The notes beneath the pieces were generated by a model. That model was not told where the DNA came from. It was given only the letters and a program-made list of their open reading frames with translations, and made no database searches. Positions 5,203 to 41,521 of a stretch of DNA of 64,000 nucleotides are shown in pieces. The stretch comes from Afipia felis ATCC 53690. Lineage in GTDB: Bacteria > Pseudomonadota > Alphaproteobacteria > Rhizobiales > Xanthobacteraceae. Position 1 is the stretch's first letter, and each line of letters begins with the position of its first letter. Position numbers and translations under genes: made by a program. Where the stretch lies: contig NZ_KB375270.1 of the NCBI RefSeq assembly GCF_000314735.2, positions 1,798,001 through 1,862,000 on the forward strand, written 5' to 3'.

Positions 5203-5845
5203 GGCGCTATATTGGCTGGCCGCATATTTGATGATCACGGCCAGCGAATGACGCCAAGTCACGCTCGCAAGCACAGCGTAAAGTATCGGTACTATATTTC
5301 CGCAGCCCTTATACAGGGTCAACAGGAGCAGGCTGGCAGCGTCAGCCGTGTTCCAGCACCCGAGATTGAAGCACAGATCATCAAAACGGTGCGCGCACAG
5401 CTTGGTTAGCTCACGACTTCCATGGATGATGCGGCGCTTGTCCGGGACCATGTGGCGCGGATCGAAGTCCACTCGGGTCAGTTAGTCGTAGAGCTCTCAC
5501 CTAAGTCAGGCGTCCGCTCACAACGAAAGCTGCGCGGACATCGGATCAAGATTCTCTGCCCGAAAACACTCGACCAATTCGCTCAGAAAATCGCGCCCTC
5601 CTCATTACCTCGATTGCCAGAGGCCGACGCTGGCTCAAAGAAATTATCGAAAACCCCGGGGTTACTGCTCATACTATCGCTGCACGCGAGCACTGCAGCG
5701 TACGCAAGATCAACATGACGATCTCACTTGCATTCCTTGCTCCGAACCTTGTCCGAGCAGCCATAGAATGCCGCCTGCCGCACGGTATGGGCGTGACTCG
5801 CTTATGCGGTTAGCCGTCTGAATGGTCCCGGCAACACCGCGCACG
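5203..5845 (+). pseudogene. large serine recombinase, C-terminal remnant
   Basis: Pieces of the C-terminal half of a large serine site-specific recombinase. From 5203 the frame gives LAGRIFDDHG, RMTPSHARKH and VKYRYYIS, typical of the zinc-ribbon region. An in-frame TAG occurs at 5407, after which the same frame resumes with DDAALVRDHVARIEVH. A frameshift near 5575-5600 moves the match to the third frame, which continues ARGRRWLKEI, AAREHCSVRKINMTISLAFL and APNLVRAAIE up to another stop at 5811, followed by SEWSRQH. The N-terminal catalytic domain is absent. So the gene is dead: at least two nonsense codons, one frameshift and a large truncation. Confidence 0.8.
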
Positions 5846-6302
5846 CACTTGGCCTGTCTCCAAACTAATCTCGTCACCGAGATATTTATCTCGGCGCGCT
5901 TGTCACACCTTGAACGGTCCAGACCAAAGCTTGAGCCGGCCCAGTGACATACACATAGGCCACTTGGCACGGACCGACCTCCCCCAGTGCTATGATGCAC
6001 TTGGCCAGCTCGCGGCGCAGTCTTTTCCATGTCGTCTCTATTTTCCAGGAAACGAGGATTTCGGGCTGGAGACCAGCTGCCAAAATCAAGGACCTTGGCT
6101 CTCGGCACTCTTTCTGGAGACTTAAACGCGCACAATGAAGCCCACTAAATGCGGGTATTTCAGACAAGTTCAGGAAATCTCTGTTTTCTCTCGAATGTTT
6201 GGTGGGCCCGGCAGGACTGCCTCAGCCTCACAAAATCAATAACTTAGAGAAATCCGAGACATCTGATTCTCGCGATGCTTCGCGTTATTTGTCTCAGTCA
6301 AA
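5846..6302. other. decayed mobile-element flank, no gene
   Basis: Lies between the recombinase remnant and the right copy of the 33-bp repeat. Frames on both strands give no recognisable product. GGTGGGCCCGGCAGGACT at 6200-6217 resembles the minus-strand 3' end of a tRNA gene (acceptor and T-arm start) but the rest of a tRNA does not follow. Confidence 0.35.
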
Positions 6303-6374: not shown

Positions 6375-6701
6375 AGAGCGCTCTGTTAACCATCGCGCCG
6401 GATGTATCGTTTACGAGTCTAGCTTTTTGATTTGGCGGCCTCCACGTTGATGAGGCCAGAGCGCGAGAGCTTTTGGCAGCCGCCACCCGATGCTGTAACA
6501 CCGAGCGACGGCCTAACCACAACCGACTAGTTGGAGTCAGTCATGGCTGAGTGCCAGTTTATCCGCGATTCGCGGCCCCCTTCCCATCCCTTGTTGCCGA
6601 TGATCGCTGCCCGTTTGAGGCGGTGCGGCCGGATCATGTTCCGTTCAGACGGCTGTATGCCCCAGGGCCTGTCCGTTCTCGGCTTCTCATCCGCCATCTA
6701 A
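6375..6701 (+). repeat. 327-bp leader repeat, copy 1
   Basis: Begins AGAGCGCTCTGTTAACC and ends CTTCTCATCCGCCATCTA. The same sequence, same orientation and nearly the same length, recurs at 37017-37344 ahead of the GIY-YIG operon. Conserved blocks include TTTTTGATTTGGCGGCCTCC, GACGGCCTAACCACAACCGA and the whole ORF start region; divergence is scattered substitutions with a few short indels. Here it is followed directly by a truncated recombinase, not by the operon. Confidence 0.85.
6543..6701 (+). CDS. conserved 52-aa leader ORF, copy 1
   Basis: ATG at 6543, TAA at 6699-6701. Product starts MAECQFIRDSRPPSHPLL and ends LGFSSAI. The second leader copy encodes a protein of exactly the same length (start 37186) with about 37 identical residues, and both end GFSSAI. 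TTGGAGTCAGTC precedes the ATG, giving GGAG seven bases upstream. Retention of the frame in two diverged copies argues that it is translated or that it is a leader peptide. No domain recognised; several differences are non-synonymous, so strong protein-level selection is not proven. Confidence 0.5.
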   Translation: MAECQFIRDSRPPSHPLLPMIAARLRRCGRIMFRSDGCMPQGLSVLGFSSAI

Positions 6702-35480: not shown

Positions 35481-36932
35481 ATGGATCTTCTCGGCATCCT
35501 TGCCGGGCTTGGCCTCCTCATCTGGCTCGCCTTCCGGGGGTGGAGCGTCCTGCTACTTGCGCCAATCGCTGCGCTTGTCGCAGCATTGTTCGGCGGTGAA
35601 CCGCTGCTTGCCCACTGGACGCAGACGTTCATGGGCAGCGCCGCAACGTTCATCGCACAATTCTTTCCGATCTTTCTGCTGGGGGCGGTATTCGGGAAGC
35701 TGATGGACGACAGCGGTGCGGTATCGTCCGTTGCCGACTTCATCACGCGGCACCTGGGCGAGAAGCGAGTCATCCTCGCGGTCGTCCTTGCAGGTGCTTT
35801 CGTCACCTATGGTGGCGTCAGCCTGTTTGTCGCCTTCTTCGTGATCGTACCGATGGCACAATCCTTGTTCGTCAAGGCCTCCATTCCTCGCCGACTTCTG
35901 CCCGCAGCCGTTATTCTTGGCACGTCAACCTTCACCATGTCGGCATTGCCGGGCACGCCCTCGATCCAAAATGCAATCCCGATGCCGTTCTTCGGCACGA
36001 CACCTTTCGCAGCGCCCGGCCTCGGCCTCGTCGCCTCGCTCGTCATGCTGGGCACAGGGCTCTGGTGGCTCGGGAGGGCAGAAAGAATAGCTCGCCTTTC
36101 CGGCGAAGGTTACGGCACCGACGCTCCTTCCCCCGGCGAAGCGATGGCGAACGAACTGGTACGCGAACGCGCCACCGCCACCGGAGAATTCGACCCAGCG
36201 GAAATCGCCCATGGTCAGCGCAGCCAGATGGCAGCACCTGTTCTGAGTGCCGCCACGCCGCTCGTCGTAGTCGTCGTGGTCAATCTTCTGATGTCGCTCG
36301 TTATCCTGCCAAGGATCGACACCACCTTCTTAGCGGAAGCACGATGGGGCGGTACATCGCTTGCCGCCGTCGCCGGCGTCTGGTCTGTGATCACCGCGCT
36401 CGCGGCGGCGATCGTAACGGCCATTGCCTGCAATTGGAGACGGCTGCCATCCCTACGGAAGACCATCGACGCAGGCGCCAATGCCTCTGTACTCCCAGCG
36501 CTGAGCGTTGCCAGCCTCGTCGGCTTCGGTGCGGTGGTCGCCGCCCTACCAGCCTTCGCCACAGTAAGAGACTGGGTTCTCGACATGGAAGGTGGCCCGC
36601 TCGTATCGCTTGCGATCGCCACCAACCTGCTGGCGGCGCTAACAGGCTCGGCCTCCGGCGGTCTGACGATCGCACTCGACGCGCTCGGAAATATCTATAT
36701 GGGGATCGCTGTGCGGGAAGGCATCAACCCCGCTCTCCTGCACCGTATCGCCGTCATCGGATCGGGAACGCTGGACATCCTACCGCACAATGGTGCCGTC
36801 GTGAGCCTTCTTGCCATTTGTGGCGTGACCCATCGCGAGAGCTATTTCGATATCGTCATGGTAGGCATCGCAACCTCGCTCCTTGCCCTGATTGCAGTGA
36901 TCGTCCTCAGCACGATCTTCGGCTCGTTTTGA
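35481..36932 (+). CDS. GntP-family permease, 483 aa
   Basis: About 12-14 membrane spans; LLGAVFGKLMDDSGAVSSVA, SALPGTPSIQNAIPMPFFGT and LTGSASGGLTIALDALGNIY are hallmark stretches of the GntP/gluconate:H+ symporter family. It imports an organic or sugar acid with protons; the exact substrate (gluconate, hydroxybutyrate or other) cannot be read. ATG at 35481, 4 bases after the patatin stop. The gene runs to 36932; only 84 bases later the second leader repeat starts, so the GIY-YIG island may have inserted directly downstream and separated other operon members. Confidence 0.88.
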   Translation: MDLLGILAGLGLLIWLAFRGWSVLLLAPIAALVAALFGGEPLLAHWTQTFMGSAATFIAQFFPIFLLGAVFGKLMDDSGAVSSVADFITRHLGEKRVILAVVLAGAFVTYGGVSLFVAFFVIVPMAQSLFVKASIPRRLLPAAVILGTSTFTMSALPGTPSIQNAIPMPFFGTTPFAAPGLGLVASLVMLGTGLWWLGRAERIARLSGEGYGTDAPSPGEAMANELVRERATATGEFDPAEIAHGQRSQMAAPVLSAATPLVVVVVVNLLMSLVILPRIDTTFLAEARWGGTSLAAVAGVWSVITALAAAIVTAIACNWRRLPSLRKTIDAGANASVLPALSVASLVGFGAVVAALPAFATVRDWVLDMEGGPLVSLAIATNLLAALTGSASGGLTIALDALGNIYMGIAVREGINPALLHRIAVIGSGTLDILPHNGAVVSLLAICGVTHRESYFDIVMVGIATSLLALIAVIVLSTIFGSF

Positions 36933-37016
36933 TAACTTAGGCCGACACCTCACCCTACCTACTCCGGCTCGCTAAACAGTTCAAAAATCCATCTGCCGGA
37001 AGGGTGCATTTCGCAA

Positions 37017-37344
37017 AGAGCGCTCTGTTAACCATCGCGCGTTTTGTATCGTTTACGTATCTAGCTTTTTGATTTGGCGGCCTCCACGTTGGTGGGGCCA
37101 GAGCGCGAGAGCTTTGGCGGCCGCCGCTCGGTGCTTGCAACACCAAACGACGGCCTAACCACAACCGACTTTACAGGAGTCAGTCATGGCTGAGTGCCAG
37201 TTTATCCGCGATTCGCGGTCCCCTTCCCATCCCTTGTTGTCGATGATTGCTGCCCGTTTGGGGTGGCACGGACGGACCTTGTTCCGTTCTGGCGGCCTAG
37301 TGCCGCTGGGCCTGCCTGTCACCGGCTTCTCATCCGCCATCTAG
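37017..37344 (+). repeat. 327-bp leader repeat, copy 2
   Basis: Same orientation and nearly the same length as 6375-6701. Contains AGAGCGCTCTGTTAACC, TTTTTGATTTGGCGGCCTCC, then a second TTTGGCGGCC before GCCGC, and GACGGCCTAACCACAACCGA in front of the small ORF. The two GGCGGCC blocks with GGTGGGGCC and GGCCGCC can pair in several ways, so the RNA is probably folded. This copy leads into the GIY-YIG operon 145 bases later. Confidence 0.85.
37186..37344 (+). CDS. conserved 52-aa leader ORF, copy 2
   Basis: ATG 37186, TAG 37342-37344; AGGAGTCAGTC places AGGAG 6 bases before the ATG. Product MAECQFIRDSRSPSHPLLSM ... GFSSAI. Equal length with copy 1 and identical first 11 residues. It sits 144 bases upstream of the GIY-YIG gene. 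Either a leader peptide or part of a structured 5' region. Confidence 0.5.
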   Translation: MAECQFIRDSRSPSHPLLSMIAARLGWHGRTLFRSGGLVPLGLPVTGFSSAI

Positions 37345-37488
37345 CGATCGGCTGCCCTGGGCGGCGTGCGTCAAGCGCGCCTCAAGGTTTGGCGGTCTCA
37401 TGGCTTGCGCTCATTGGTGTGAGCGCGGCAATGGACGCGTGCGCCCTGCCCTCAGGACCCGATCCCTTTCAGCAAGGGATTCTCATCA

Positions 37489-38442
37489 ATGTCTTCCGTT
37501 TGTCAGCCTGCCTTTGACGCGGGCACCACCACCATCATCCATCGCCCGAAGTCCGGGATTACCGGGTTTCGGGATATCATCGACGAGGCCTCGAGACTCT
37601 CGGTCTGCGCCTTTCCGTTTGCGCCGGTCGACGAGGAACTGCGCAACCGCCTGTCCTGGCTGCCGGCCTGTTATATCCTCTCGAACGGCCGCGAGATCTA
37701 TGTCGGCGAGACCGGCAACATGGCGCGCCGGCTCGGCGAACATCTGGCCGATCCAGATAAATCGTTCGCCAATGAAGTCTTCGTCGTCAGCGGCCTCGCC
37801 CACCGCTGGTACGACAAGTCCGGCCCGATGTTCCTGCAGGAGCGCCTGACGCGGCTGGCGGAAGCCGCCGGCTTCGTCACGGTGCGAAAAGACAAGAACC
37901 CGCCGCAGACCGAACCGACTTCGTGGCATCGCACGACACTGGAGCGGATCGTCACGGATGGGGAGCGGCTTCTGTTCGATGCCGGCTGCCGCGCGTTCCA
38001 CTCCAACAATACCAAACCAGTTGCATCTTTGATGCCTGCATTGGTGCCCTCCTACACGCTCGATGACGAGGACGACGAGAACTGCCTGATGCAGATCGGC
38101 GTCTCCACGGCGCCGATCGGCTCACAGGAGTACGAGCTCAACTACTGCGGCATCTGGGCGCGAGGTTATCCGCTCGGCGACAACTTCGTTGTGGCCGCAG
38201 GGTCCGAGGTTCGCAGCACCATCAATCCCAGTGCGCGGCCGATCGTCAAAACCCGTCATGAGGCCCTGCGGGACGCCGCCGCCCTTGCTCCAATCACCGG
38301 GGTCGAGGACCGGCTTCGCCTCACGGTGGCGGTTGCCTTCCACTCGCTCAACACCGCTGCCCAGGTGGTGTGCGGCGCACAGGCCACAGCACGGCTCTGG
38401 CAACGGCTCAGCCATGCCAGTCCCATCATCGTGGCAGCATGA
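37489..38442 (+). CDS. GIY-YIG nuclease-domain protein, 317 aa
   Basis: GIY-YIG fold at about residues 58-130: ACYILSNG is the first strand, YVGETGNMARRLGEHL gives the second motif with the catalytic Arg (residue 80), and a Glu in FLQERLTRL about residue 117 could be the metal ligand. N-terminal 55 residues and C-terminal 180 residues are unassigned; the latter contains an acidic linker (LDDEDDENC) and a second compact part. The domain cuts or nicks DNA in homing endonucleases, UvrC and defence proteins. ATG at 37489 after CAAGGGATTCTCATCA, a weak ribosome site. First gene of the four-gene operon; the next starts 13 bases after the stop. Confidence 0.85.
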   Translation: MSSVCQPAFDAGTTTIIHRPKSGITGFRDIIDEASRLSVCAFPFAPVDEELRNRLSWLPACYILSNGREIYVGETGNMARRLGEHLADPDKSFANEVFVVSGLAHRWYDKSGPMFLQERLTRLAEAAGFVTVRKDKNPPQTEPTSWHRTTLERIVTDGERLLFDAGCRAFHSNNTKPVASLMPALVPSYTLDDEDDENCLMQIGVSTAPIGSQEYELNYCGIWARGYPLGDNFVVAAGSEVRSTINPSARPIVKTRHEALRDAAALAPITGVEDRLRLTVAVAFHSLNTAAQVVCGAQATARLWQRLSHASPIIVAA

Positions 38443-38455
38443 GGAGGGTGAGACC

Positions 38456-38860
38456 ATGACACATGCTCTCGACAAGACCTTCCCATGGGATTGGTGGCGG
38501 ACAACGCCGCCCAGCCGTCTCGACGCAACGCATCGTTATACTCTGCGACGATCGCTGGCGCAGATCGCCGTTCTTGGCGAGCCGGGATGGCAACGGGCCG
38601 TGGCCGGCGATGCCGCAGAAGCGATCGGCATTGCCCTGCCGCTCATCCACAGTGGCGAATCCGGCTTGCGCCTCGACATCGTGATGAGCGCAGTTCTGCT
38701 GTGTGCCCTGAACGGCAATCCCGCCGCGGCGCTGATGCTCGCCCATGCCCTCGATAGCAAGTCCCATCAGGACCTGTGGCCACTCACCGAGCGCTGGCTG
38801 GCCAGAATCCCGACGCCAAAGACGCCCAAGTCCGAGCGTTCGCAGGGAGGTGCAGCATGA
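38456..38860 (+). CDS. small unknown protein of the GIY-YIG operon, 134 aa
   Basis: ATG at 38456 with GAGGAGGG 7 bases upstream, an excellent ribosome site. Starts MTHALDKTFPWDWWRTTPPS; alpha-helical and Ala-rich in the middle (EPGWQRAVAGDAAEAIGIAL; MSAVLLCALNGNPAAALMLA), with a basic Ser/Lys-rich C-terminal tail. No family recognised. Its stop overlaps the metallophosphoesterase start (ATGA), so it is produced with it and could be an adaptor in the same complex. Confidence 0.75.
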   Translation: MTHALDKTFPWDWWRTTPPSRLDATHRYTLRRSLAQIAVLGEPGWQRAVAGDAAEAIGIALPLIHSGESGLRLDIVMSAVLLCALNGNPAAALMLAHALDSKSHQDLWPLTERWLARIPTPKTPKSERSQGGAA

Positions 38861-39630
38861 AGCTTCAGATCTTTAGCGACCTCCATGCCGATATCTATCC
38901 AGCTAAAGCGATCCAGCTTCAGCCGGACATCGATGCGGTGATCGTGGCCGGCGACACCTGCGAAGGCGCCGACAAGGCCTTCGCCACCTTGCGCGGGATC
39001 GTGCCCCTCGAGATCCCGATCATCATGGTGCTGGGCAACCACGAATTCTATCGCCGCTGCTTGCCAGAGGAAGTCGCACTGGCGAAGGAACTCGCTCCGC
39101 AGTTCAACATCCATCTGCTCGAGAACGAGACAGTGATCTTGAACGGCGTCCGCTTCATCGGCGCTAGCTTGTGGACCGACTACAGGCTCTTCGGGGAGCA
39201 CGCCGCACCGCTCATCATGGCGCACGCGCAGGAGGTCATGAACGACCATCGCCTGATCGCCTGGTCCAAGCAGCCATTCCACCGCTTCCGCCCGACTGAC
39301 GCCTGGCGGCTGCACCTGGAGTCACGCCAGTACCTGGAGACAGTGCTGAGAACGCGGTTTGACGGCGCCAGCATCGTCGTCACCCATCATGCGCCGCATC
39401 CCGGATCGCTGCATCCGGTCTACAAGGATGATCTGCTATCGGCGGCCTTCGTGTCCGACCTGTCGACGCTGCTGGAAGGTCCTCATGGGCCTGACCTGTG
39501 GGTGCATGGCCACGTCCATCACTCCTTCGACTATGCCGTCCACAAGACGCGCATCGTCTGCAACCCCAATGGCTATGGCGACGAGAACCCGGCCTTCAAC
39601 CCCTCCTTGGTCGTGGAGGTGGGGTCATGA
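38857..39630 (+). CDS. calcineurin-like metallophosphoesterase, 257 aa
   Basis: All five metallophosphoesterase motifs are visible: SDLHAD (Asp 8, His 10), AGDTC (Asp 33), LGNHEF (Asn 61, His 62), VTHHAP and HGHVHHS. These bind two metal ions and hydrolyse phosphodiesters or phosphomonoesters; family members include nucleases, 2',3'-cyclic nucleotide phosphodiesterases and NudH-like enzymes. ATG 38857 overlaps the preceding stop and its own TGA overlaps the ATPase start, so the order is locked. No signal peptide; cytosolic. Confidence 0.9.
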   Translation: MKLQIFSDLHADIYPAKAIQLQPDIDAVIVAGDTCEGADKAFATLRGIVPLEIPIIMVLGNHEFYRRCLPEEVALAKELAPQFNIHLLENETVILNGVRFIGASLWTDYRLFGEHAAPLIMAHAQEVMNDHRLIAWSKQPFHRFRPTDAWRLHLESRQYLETVLRTRFDGASIVVTHHAPHPGSLHPVYKDDLLSAAFVSDLSTLLEGPHGPDLWVHGHVHHSFDYAVHKTRIVCNPNGYGDENPAFNPSLVVEVGS

Positions 39631-41228
39631 GCAAGCCGTTCGATGACAACGACGATGACGACAACAGCAGCAGCCTTGGCCCCGACGACAACGGGGATGC
39701 GGGCGAGGAGATCAGCATCACTATCGACGACGAGCGGCTCCTGTTGGGGACAGCCGCCGACAGTGGCGACCTCAAAGACGAGCGGCTCAGCCTGCATCGG
39801 CTGTTCCGTTACGGCCTGCTCAGCGACGAGCATTCAAGCCTTGTCGAAGAGCGGCTTGCCGCCGAGATCAATCAGGTTGCACCAAAAGTGGCGCTGGAGC
39901 CCTGGCTGATCGCCAAGGACTATGCCACCGGCGCACTTCTGGCCGAGGAGCTGGATCGTCTTGCCACGGCAGAGGACCGGGCGATCCTGCGCAGTCTTTC
40001 CGACTGCGTACGGCTATTGTCCTTGCCAGCACCCCATATCGCCTATGATGCGAAGGCCTACTGGCGCGTCACGGCCGCCCTGTTCGCCGCCCGCAAGAAA
40101 CGCTGGCATGTGTTGAGCAAGCCGATGCTGGCCGAGGTGGAATCCTTCCTCTACGGCTGGGCGGCAGCACCTCTCGTGCTGCAGGTCACACCCGAACTGC
40201 AGCACTACGACCTCGCGGTGGATGCGGCTCTCGGTTTGGGCCACTTCATGGTGACCTGCCGCATCCAGGCCGCCCAGGAGGAAGTTCGCAACGAGTACCG
40301 CCATCGCGACGACGACCAAACATCGGATAAGACGGCCACCAGTAAGGATTCTGCTCCCGATGACGTGCCGGAGGACCATGTCATGGTCTGCTCCCTGCCC
40401 GAACAGAGGGCCAGCTCTTCAAACCTGACCAGGACCTACAAGTCCGCGATCAACTCGCCTTTGCCACTCACCTTGGCTCCACCGCTCCCCAAGGTGCGCG
40501 CAACGCTGCTGTTCGAGTTCCCTTACGCACAGGAGGCGATCGACGCCATCCTGTCCGATCTCGTCGGCCAGCGGGGCGTGAGACTCAAGCCAACCCTGCT
40601 GGTTGGCCAACCTGGCGCGGGCAAGTCCCGCTTTGCCAGGCGTCTGGCCGAAGAGCTCGGCCTTATTGTCTGGCGCGTCGACGGCGCGCAGTCGGACGGC
40701 TCAATCTTTGCCGGCACCGACCGGCGCTGGCACTCGACCGAGCCCTGTCATCCGTTCATGGCGGTGCACCGCGCGGGCCACGCCAATCCGCTCGTGCTAA
40801 TTGATGAGCTCGAGAAGGCCGCAACCCGATCCGACCATGGCCGGCTGTGGGATTGCCTGCTCGGCTTCTTCGAGCCGGAGACCGCCGCGCGTTATCCGGA
40901 TCCTGCGCTACAAACCGCGCTCGACCTGTCGCACGTCAATTACATCATGACGGCGAACAGCACCGATGCCCTGCCCTCACCGCTGCGGGACCGGTTGCGC
41001 GTGATCAGCTTCCCCACGCCGCAAGCCCGAGATCTCGACGCACTGCTACCCGCGATCCTCGCCGGCATCGCCATTGAGCGCCAGCTCGATCCGCGCTGGA
41101 TCATCCCGCTGGACGGCGACGAGTACCACGCCACTGCGTATCATTGGCGCGGCGGCTCCGTCCGGCAACTCAAGCGGATCGTCGAGGTTATTCTCAAAGC
41201 ACGAGAGAAAAACACCGTGCCGAACTAA
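39627..41228 (+). CDS. AAA+ ATPase with acidic N-terminus, 533 aa
   Basis: N-terminal about 25 residues are almost all Asp/Asn/Ser/Gly (DDNDDDDNSSS). A helical middle (about 40-290) of unknown type precedes the AAA+ core: Walker A VGQPGAGKS (326-334), Walker B LVLIDE (389-394), sensor 1 IMTAN and Arg finger LRDRLRV. The C-terminal lid (GSVRQLKRIVEVI) resembles Lon-type AAA+ lids but there is no protease domain. It likely forms a ring that remodels or recruits nucleic acid or protein for the nuclease and phosphoesterase. ATGA overlap with the phosphoesterase; a hairpin follows the stop. Confidence 0.88.
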   Translation: MSKPFDDNDDDDNSSSLGPDDNGDAGEEISITIDDERLLLGTAADSGDLKDERLSLHRLFRYGLLSDEHSSLVEERLAAEINQVAPKVALEPWLIAKDYATGALLAEELDRLATAEDRAILRSLSDCVRLLSLPAPHIAYDAKAYWRVTAALFAARKKRWHVLSKPMLAEVESFLYGWAAAPLVLQVTPELQHYDLAVDAALGLGHFMVTCRIQAAQEEVRNEYRHRDDDQTSDKTATSKDSAPDDVPEDHVMVCSLPEQRASSSNLTRTYKSAINSPLPLTLAPPLPKVRATLLFEFPYAQEAIDAILSDLVGQRGVRLKPTLLVGQPGAGKSRFARRLAEELGLIVWRVDGAQSDGSIFAGTDRRWHSTEPCHPFMAVHRAGHANPLVLIDELEKAATRSDHGRLWDCLLGFFEPETAARYPDPALQTALDLSHVNYIMTANSTDALPSPLRDRLRVISFPTPQARDLDALLPAILAGIAIERQLDPRWIIPLDGDEYHATAYHWRGGSVRQLKRIVEVILKAREKNTVPN

Positions 41229-41244
41229 GCCCGATCGCAAAGAA

Positions 41245-41267
41245 GGCAGCCGCCGGATGCGGCTGCC
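41245..41267 (+). terminator. hairpin at the end of the AAA+ operon
   Basis: Perfect 9-bp stem GGCAGCCGC, loop CGGAT, GCGGCTGCC, 16 bases past the AAA+ stop. Not followed by a T-run, so termination may be partial or Rho-assisted. Confidence 0.6.
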
Positions 41268-41521
41268 TGTACAATTGATTCAGGCAATCACTTTTCGTCG
41301 GCCTGACACCACGCAACACTTCCGCCGACAATGCCGGTGAACGGCTCAAAGCCTGCAGAACGCGCGCATGGAATGATCCCTTGAGAAAACTAGGGGCTGC
41401 TGCATGTGGAAGTCGCCAGCCCTTCGGCGCTTGGCAGCTGAGCACAGGTCAATCCTGATTGAATGTACGTTAAATCTGGAACCCGAACTGCGTTGATCCC
41501 CTTCGTCATAGTCAGCCCGTA

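Follow-up and report, generated by a model that had tools for sequence, protein, structure and literature searches.

In a 64,000-nucleotide (nt) stretch of the genome of Afipia felis ATCC 53690 (contig NZ_KB375270.1; hereafter the window, in whose positions coordinates are given), we identified a four-gene accessory operon behind a leader whose sequence is closely similar to that of the Escherichia coli symE/SymR pair. The operon encodes a GIY-YIG-like protein (GIY), a small protein matching no family (UNK), a calcineurin-like metallophosphoesterase (MPE) and a Lon-type AAA+ ATPase (AAA), and is one version of a real, modular operon that has no established name and recurs in relatives. A methylation site of the CcrM type is invariant in the promoter predicted for the antisense RNA of the leader. 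We consider the chances about even that this is a horizontally spread conflict operon, probably for defence, which would be silenced by a SymR-like antisense RNA from a methylation-gated promoter. The features are collected in Table 1.

Table 1. Features of the operon, its leader and its surroundings, in window positions.
Feature	Position	Strand	Size or sequence	Basis or remark
20-bp copy of tRNA-Met 3' end	6199..6218	+	20 bp	possible left end of 68-kb island
Solo leader copy	6375..6700	+		GIY gene not following
75-bp inverted copy	36941..37015		75 bp	89% identical to C1:338506-338580; abuts leader
Leader repeat	37017..37343	+	327 bp	86.4% copy in window; strong model matches in relatives
Predicted SymR-like antisense RNA	37116..37191	-		Rfam symR and model R2
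Leader ORF	37186..37344	+	52 aa, MAECQFIRDS...	start and first codons conserved
Predicted antisense -10 box	37199..37204	-	TAAACT	offset 13-18 from ATG
GATTC (GANTC) site	37210..37214		in CGATTCG	5 nt upstream of antisense -10 box
GIY-YIG-like protein (GIY)	37489..38442	+	317 aa	Pfam, PADLOC PDC-S14, residue conservation
Unknown protein (UNK)	38456..38860	+	134 aa	no family match
Calcineurin-like metallophosphoesterase (MPE)	38857..39630	+	257 aa	metal-ligand motifs intact
Lon-type AAA+ ATPase (AAA)	39627..41228	+	533 aa	N-terminal half without family match; no protease domain
Hairpin after operon	41244..41268		10-bp perfect stem, T run absent	read by eye; 3' of AAA stop codon

Aligned upstream regions of the GIY loci share one order of elements: a GC-rich hairpin, CCTRACCACAACC, a Shine-Dalgarno hairpin, ATGGCT and a palindrome around GATTC. 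Three of the four helices carry two-sided changes that keep the pair, in 19 cells as against 5.4 when shuffled and at most 3 when slid, counts that are not a probability because the leader sequences are related. The ATG opens a short leader open reading frame (ORF) that stays open for 41-96 codons in 25/25 leaders, with little sequence conservation past the first codons, as is expected of a coupling ORF. By eye, the leader ORFs of five loci (L033, L044, L048, L053 and L058; 86-96 amino acids, aa) hold a truncated GIY-YIG-like segment, as if the 5' part of GIY had been duplicated; it is possibly a decoy or a coupling peptide. No canonical promoter or terminator was found in the leader.

The sequence-only reading had described a 327-bp leader repeat. 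A repeat it is, with an 86% copy in the window, but it is more than that, and its SymE-type character had been missed. Model R1, built with 16 of the 18 GIY loci (L017 and L032 not used), finds the leader at 18/18 GIY loci and, above 14 bits, at 0/23 non-GIY loci, some of which have little upstream DNA. Among 296 genomes of the family there are 14 matches of at least 60 bits in 10 genomes, all GIY-positive: 11 stand directly before GIY, 2 are solo copies, one in this genome and one in its sister, and 1 is at a contig end. When weaker R1 matches are included the leader is present in 38/296 genomes. A whole-genome search with 36933-37520 returned two leader copies and one 75-bp piece outside the repeat. 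The solo copy in the window lies near the possible left end of an island and is followed, by eye, by an apparent serine-recombinase remnant; sister genome G021 also has one. In view of its conservation as a leader before GIY, we no longer consider the repeat to be the end of a transposon, a decision made with no formal test.

Over a 191-base stretch, the Rfam symR model matches at full length on the minus strand (33.6 bits, E 4.7e-5), and the R1162 antisense family (RF00043) matches at full length on the plus strand (32.8 bits, E 2.6e-4); R1162 is also listed in a larger scan, for L053 (E 0.022). The likeness holds in the other direction. Covariance model R2, made from 32 alphaproteobacterial leaders with E. 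coli excluded, has the symE leader as its top match in 10 kb of E. coli K-12 (21.8 bits, E 7.5e-5; next match 11.2), at 5836-5915 of that stretch, minus strand; the annotated symR gene occupies 5836-5912 of the opposite (plus) strand. The predicted antisense RNA has complementarity to the hairpin of the leader, to the CCTAACCACAACC linker, to the hairpin at the Shine-Dalgarno site and to the start codon, and we infer SymR-like antisense control of the operon. A leader of this kind would also suit a selfish operon resembling a type I toxin-antitoxin system, in which the antisense RNA would act as antitoxin to one toxic product, and both the lone copy of the leader and the incomplete AAA copy in the neighbourhood favor such a system; several conserved genes, an ATPase and a phosphoesterase among them, exceed the needs of a toxin, and we regard this possibility as quite improbable.

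Similar leaders also precede unrelated genes across the Alphaproteobacteria (L153-L175; 39/385 genomes drawn from the class). In one genus of the same family (g39; L132-L149) each genome has 1-4 of them, whose hairpins differ in sequence, ahead of a protein family (about 220 aa) that begins MADSEIS..SRRD, a pattern that suggests copy-specific antisense control.

The antisense promoter was read in 23 distinct GIY-type leaders, a set that includes the solo copy and excludes L129, whose contig ends in the leader ORF, and unfetched second copies. At offset 13-18 from the ATG, on the minus strand, the hexamer is TATACT (6), TATAGT (6), TAAACT (4) or TATAAT (3), and more rarely TATAAG (2), TAAAAG (1) or TAAAAA (1). 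In symE the hexamer ATTCTA occupies the same offset as the -10 box predicted here. The E. coli symR promoter is reported to be abolished by the silent change of CATTCT to CACTCC at offsets 12-17 (PMC1891008).

At 5 nt upstream of this box, (C/T)GATTCG is invariant in 23/23 leaders, with variable flanking arms. It fits the GcrA-type motif YGAKTCK and adjoins a sigma70-type -10 box, itself a prediction, in all 23. For comparison, GANTC, the sequence that CcrM methylates, occurs at 1.89/kb in 350 kb of related genomes and at 2.97/kb in the window. The genome encodes GcrA (196.6 bits) and a RAMA-domain protein (74.7 bits), which we take to be CcrM. GANTC also stands at offset 23, with G or C as the middle base, in 11/12 rows of a second leader type, which precedes an unrelated protein family (about 220 aa). 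For Caulobacter, an extended motif of GcrA activation has been proposed, YGAKTCK (PMC7987155), and GcrA is described as binding sigma and stimulating open complexes at methylated promoters (PMC7403470).

The palindrome around GATTC could instead serve as an RNA or DNA hairpin. The leader would then be an antisense-controlled or self-folding translational switch, with GATTC in a hairpin or protein operator and methylation without a role, a reading to which we give a little less than an even prospect. It agrees with the covarying palindrome that the GATTC arms form in most leaders and with the absence of GANTC from the corresponding place in 17/17 parsed class-wide leaders (25 loci, 8 unparsable; L155 and L176 look misparsed). 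It fits less well with a 7-mer that matches the GcrA motif and is fixed while its arms vary, and with a second leader type in which GANTC, with a different middle base, is kept at almost the same position. On the 17/17 result, we rejected the view that GANTC characterises the leader family as a whole. Because of that result, and because the second leader type is not found before GIY genes, methylation gating would be confined to certain subfamilies.

These two observations weigh against methylation-gated antisense silencing of a conflict operon, and so do several others. The symR and R1162 scores lie below the gathering scores of 61 and 55 bits, respectively, and symR was not among the Rfam matches in two larger scans. 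Further pair types in the covariation analysis number 6, which is not above the shuffles (mean 6.8), and the leader is not unusually stable as a single strand (z -0.93). No E. coli-type sigma70 promoter was found on either strand of 36930-37500. Control would act on the start codon of the leader ORF; this ORF stops 144 nt short of GIY, so that control of the operon needs coupling or mRNA decay. Five of the 15 GIY genomes (G019, G146, G189, G190 and G303) have no strong leader match. Brevundimonas subvibrioides showed no preference for the extended GcrA motif (PMC7987155). Finally, the commonest Pfam families in the flanks of related loci, given below, are metabolic rather than mobile.

The gene calls, the repeat search and the stem bear out the sequence-only reading of a four-gene operon behind the repeat and ended by a hairpin, with three genes joined by ATGA overlaps (at UNK/MPE and MPE/AAA; the gap between GIY and UNK is 13 nt). 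Its identification of a metallophosphoesterase and an AAA+ ATPase holds as well, both being above the Pfam cut-offs (Metallophos 49.3 bits, AAA 41.8 bits), and UNK, for which it had named no family, has none in the Pfam scan. All MPE motifs (DxH, GD, GNHE, H and GHxH) are present, and their Asp, Asn and His are invariant in 17/17 full-length sequences, the window included; the sequence search found no relative of MPE with a solved structure. MPE resembles the PADLOC candidate family PDC-S10. For AAA, the Walker A, Walker B, sensor and Arg-finger positions vary little or not at all across 37 sequences. Its ATPase module aligns with Lon structures at E down to 4.7e-25. The Lon models cover residues 324-464 only, the Pfam matches are to P-loop or AAA-type families only, no Lon protease domain was found in the Pfam scan, and the N-terminal half matches no family. 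In PADLOC, AAA has a weak likeness to IetA and other ATPases (best E 5e-4). The motifs of both the ATPase and the phosphoesterase are thus intact.

The first gene had been called a GIY-YIG nuclease, which stands in part. Residues expected of GIY-YIG nucleases are kept (Y62 23/23, Y71 23/23, G73 22/23, R81 20/23, H85 23/23), and the protein resembles the PADLOC candidate family PDC-S14 (8e-24). The Pfam match covers half of the domain at 20.2 bits, under the cut-off of 22.6, and in the search of solved structures the alignment was limited to the first half of the domain. Q117, 36 residues past R81 and present in 20/23 sequences, occupies what we take, without structure alignment, to be the position of the catalytic Glu. 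The catalytic Glu may therefore have been lost, and the domain may be catalytically dead.

A search of genome contigs with an AAA profile, entered through two short peptide patterns, returned 38 loci, 37 of them in genera of the Hyphomicrobiales, mostly labelled Bradyrhizobium, and one outlier in Lachnospiraceae. We compared 41 loci, comprising the 37, three Bradyrhizobium plasmids and the window, with the Lachnospiraceae locus L059 excluded. AAA is constant across them because it was the means of finding them. UNK is present in 25, MPE in 19 (2 truncated) and GIY in 18; DUF2130 lies downstream in 14 and DUF6634 immediately before AAA in 12, each of these two families having been identified on one representative. 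The tightly spaced set of the sequence-only reading recurs, but not as a fixed four-gene set: the exact order GIY-UNK-MPE-AAA is found in only 2/41 loci, the window and Afipia 1NLS2, which are one lineage. Two further loci have DUF6634 between MPE and AAA, one has other added genes, and two loci combine a truncated MPE with DUF2130. In L043 and L044 the MPE gene calls are only 88 and 46 aa, the remaining operon being kept.

It is the front end that is swapped among AAA loci. Some have GIY; others have an HNH protein (Pfam just below cut-off, PHROGs 2e-7) with a phrog_4652 protein, an uncharacterised F12 protein, small proteins that read as zinc-binding, or a sigma factor together with an apparently ParA-like ATPase, under the cut-off in Pfam. 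The last pair replaces the front end before DUF6634 and AAA in L037, L039, L045 and L047. From these gene orders, the operon is one version of a modular operon with swappable front modules.

Co-occurrence of the genes in other genomes, a check that the sequence-only reading had proposed, was found in the 41 neighbourhoods and in the family survey. Among the 296 genomes, AAA is present in 30 (20 full-length, 10 with the C-terminal module only) and GIY in 15. Nine genomes share both, against a chance expectation of 1.5 (hypergeometric p ~1e-6, uncorrected for relatedness), and 8 share GIY and full-length AAA, against 1.0 (p ~5e-7, likewise uncorrected). In 12 fetched GIY loci, with 1.5 kb on either side, UNK adjoins GIY in 9 and MPE is seen in 7. 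A class-wide draw matched in 2/190 genomes, the source genome included. Such patchy presence speaks against a DNA repair or housekeeping accessory operon, an explanation that would account for the MPE, the annotated 3'-5' exonuclease and the DUF2130 protein found nearby in some relatives and that we judge very improbable. In agreement with the earlier statement that the gene set belongs to no named system, PADLOC 2023 gave no complete named anti-phage system for it, and no description of the gene set, or of a GANTC-controlled antisense RNA of this kind, stood out in a literature search. A phage search with a 33-aa piece of AAA, a weak test, gave no match.

The operon had also been read as an insertion after a metabolic operon. 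This is not proven: no empty site was seen in the best flanking-gene matches of 29 genus genomes, where the places were not individually compared and the best matches outside sister genome G021 had 74% and 56% identity. The wider region looks like an island at tRNA-Met. Exact 20-bp copies of the tRNA-Met 3' end occur in the window (Table 1) and at C1:1872657-1872676, the latter adjoining an ORF that reads by eye as a tyrosine integrase, and the operon therefore lies inside a putative 68-kb island that extends past the window. A copy of the C-terminal part of AAA lies 27 kb downstream (G000:C1:1866053-1866859; 267 aa, 91% identical, residues 265-533) and begins abruptly. The counterpart of the 75-bp inverted copy at C1:338506-338580 reads as a gene end.

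For the flanks we kept 148/216 genes (no more than 5 from any locus, each shorter than 900 aa; eight loci excluded) and analysed 129 proteins; as controls we used 105/140 genes from 15/20 stretches of related genomes, which were hand-picked and not randomly generated. The commonest Pfam families in the 129 proteins are Aminotran_5 (6), TctC (5) and enoyl-CoA hydratase (5); the mobile families are IS110-type transposases (4), MobA/MobL (3) and phage integrase (2). At 1e-20, PADLOC gave 38 families in the flank proteins and 2 in the control proteins, an indication and not a measured enrichment because a single protein may hit more than one family and the two sets are unequal in size and in how they were chosen. 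The flank families listed, 25 of the 38, include Argonaute (2 proteins), mad3 (3) and, with 1 protein each, Cas3, Hhe and BrxF; the controls have mad3 (2) and MzaA (1). PADLOC families are, with that limit, commoner in the flanks of relatives than in arbitrary stretches.

The link to mobile elements, on which a check had likewise been suggested, is supported: mobile DNA accompanies some relatives, and three Bradyrhizobium plasmids, one mobilizable and two conjugative, carry related operons, in one case beside virB genes. These plasmids, together with the 3/129 MobA/MobL flank proteins and the low-scoring match between the leader and the R1162 plasmid RNA, are what would be expected if the operon aided establishment of a plasmid or integrative and conjugative element (anti-restriction, replication or maintenance in a new host) and not host defence. 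The greater frequency of PADLOC families in the flanks and the presence of several loci per genome in some contigs, as in Bradyrhizobium erythrophlei GAS478, argue the other way, and we think this explanation unlikely. A defence role is plausible.

How methylation-gated silencing of a conflict operon might work can be set out in steps. Architecture, conservation and likeness to symE are observations; antisense transcription, its effect, its dependence on methylation and a role in defence are what we would deduce from them. An antisense RNA running on the minus strand from about 37191 to 37116 would pair with the leader, cover the Shine-Dalgarno site and the start of the leader ORF and so block its translation, and with it, by coupling or mRNA decay, that of GIY-UNK-MPE-AAA. 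Its promoter, which lacks an E. coli-type -35/-10 match, would need GcrA on CcrM-methylated GATTC, so that the operon would be silent on resident DNA and open on newly conjugated or replicated DNA, low methylation after conjugative entry or replication lifting the silencing. Once expressed, the AAA+ motor with UNK would drive a complex that processes DNA or RNA. Its active hydrolase is probably MPE, and the GIY-YIG protein would cut nucleic acid or, if dead, recognise it; the complex, probably a motor-driven nucleic-acid processor, would protect the cell or the incoming element. Possibly the antisense RNA is made from CcrM-methylated DNA only. A complete entry switch timed epigenetically, with the silencer made solely from CcrM-methylated DNA through GcrA and the operon firing just after entry and shutting off once host-methylated, seems to us rather doubtful.

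The operon joins three fields: modular operons of a defence-like kind in rhizobia and related bacteria, control by SymR-type antisense RNAs, and CcrM/GcrA methylation in Alphaproteobacteria. If methylation-gated silencing is correct, a cell cycle methylation mark would also tell the age of mobile DNA, and the leader family, found in 39/385 genomes of the class, would be a handle for finding other silenced accessory genes.

Among known systems, the GIY protein shares with the GIY-YIG superfamily the Tyr of GIY, the Tyr and Gly of YIG, and the Arg and His positions, and differs in the Gln at the expected Glu and in its Pfam score. AAA has the AAA+ module of Lon protease without the protease domain, joined to an unmatched N-terminal half. 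The PADLOC families matched by GIY and MPE are candidate families only, and the DUF6634 and DUF2130 neighbours of AAA in other loci are absent from the window operon. The leader matches the R1162-like plasmid antisense RNA over its full length, below the gathering score, and the Pfam scan of the operon proteins showed no replication gene. The leader is also like that of symE/symR of E. coli K-12 (RF01809), which has the same succession of hairpin, CTAAYCACAA linker, Shine-Dalgarno hairpin and ATG, an antisense -10 reading at the same offset, 13-18, within the ORF, and a setting, between the mcrBC and hsd restriction genes, that we count among the likenesses. The two differ in that the start here is that of a short leader ORF, with the four operon genes after it, and not that of SymE, the AbrB/SymE family being absent from family scans of the four proteins, and in that the leader here carries a CcrM-type site.

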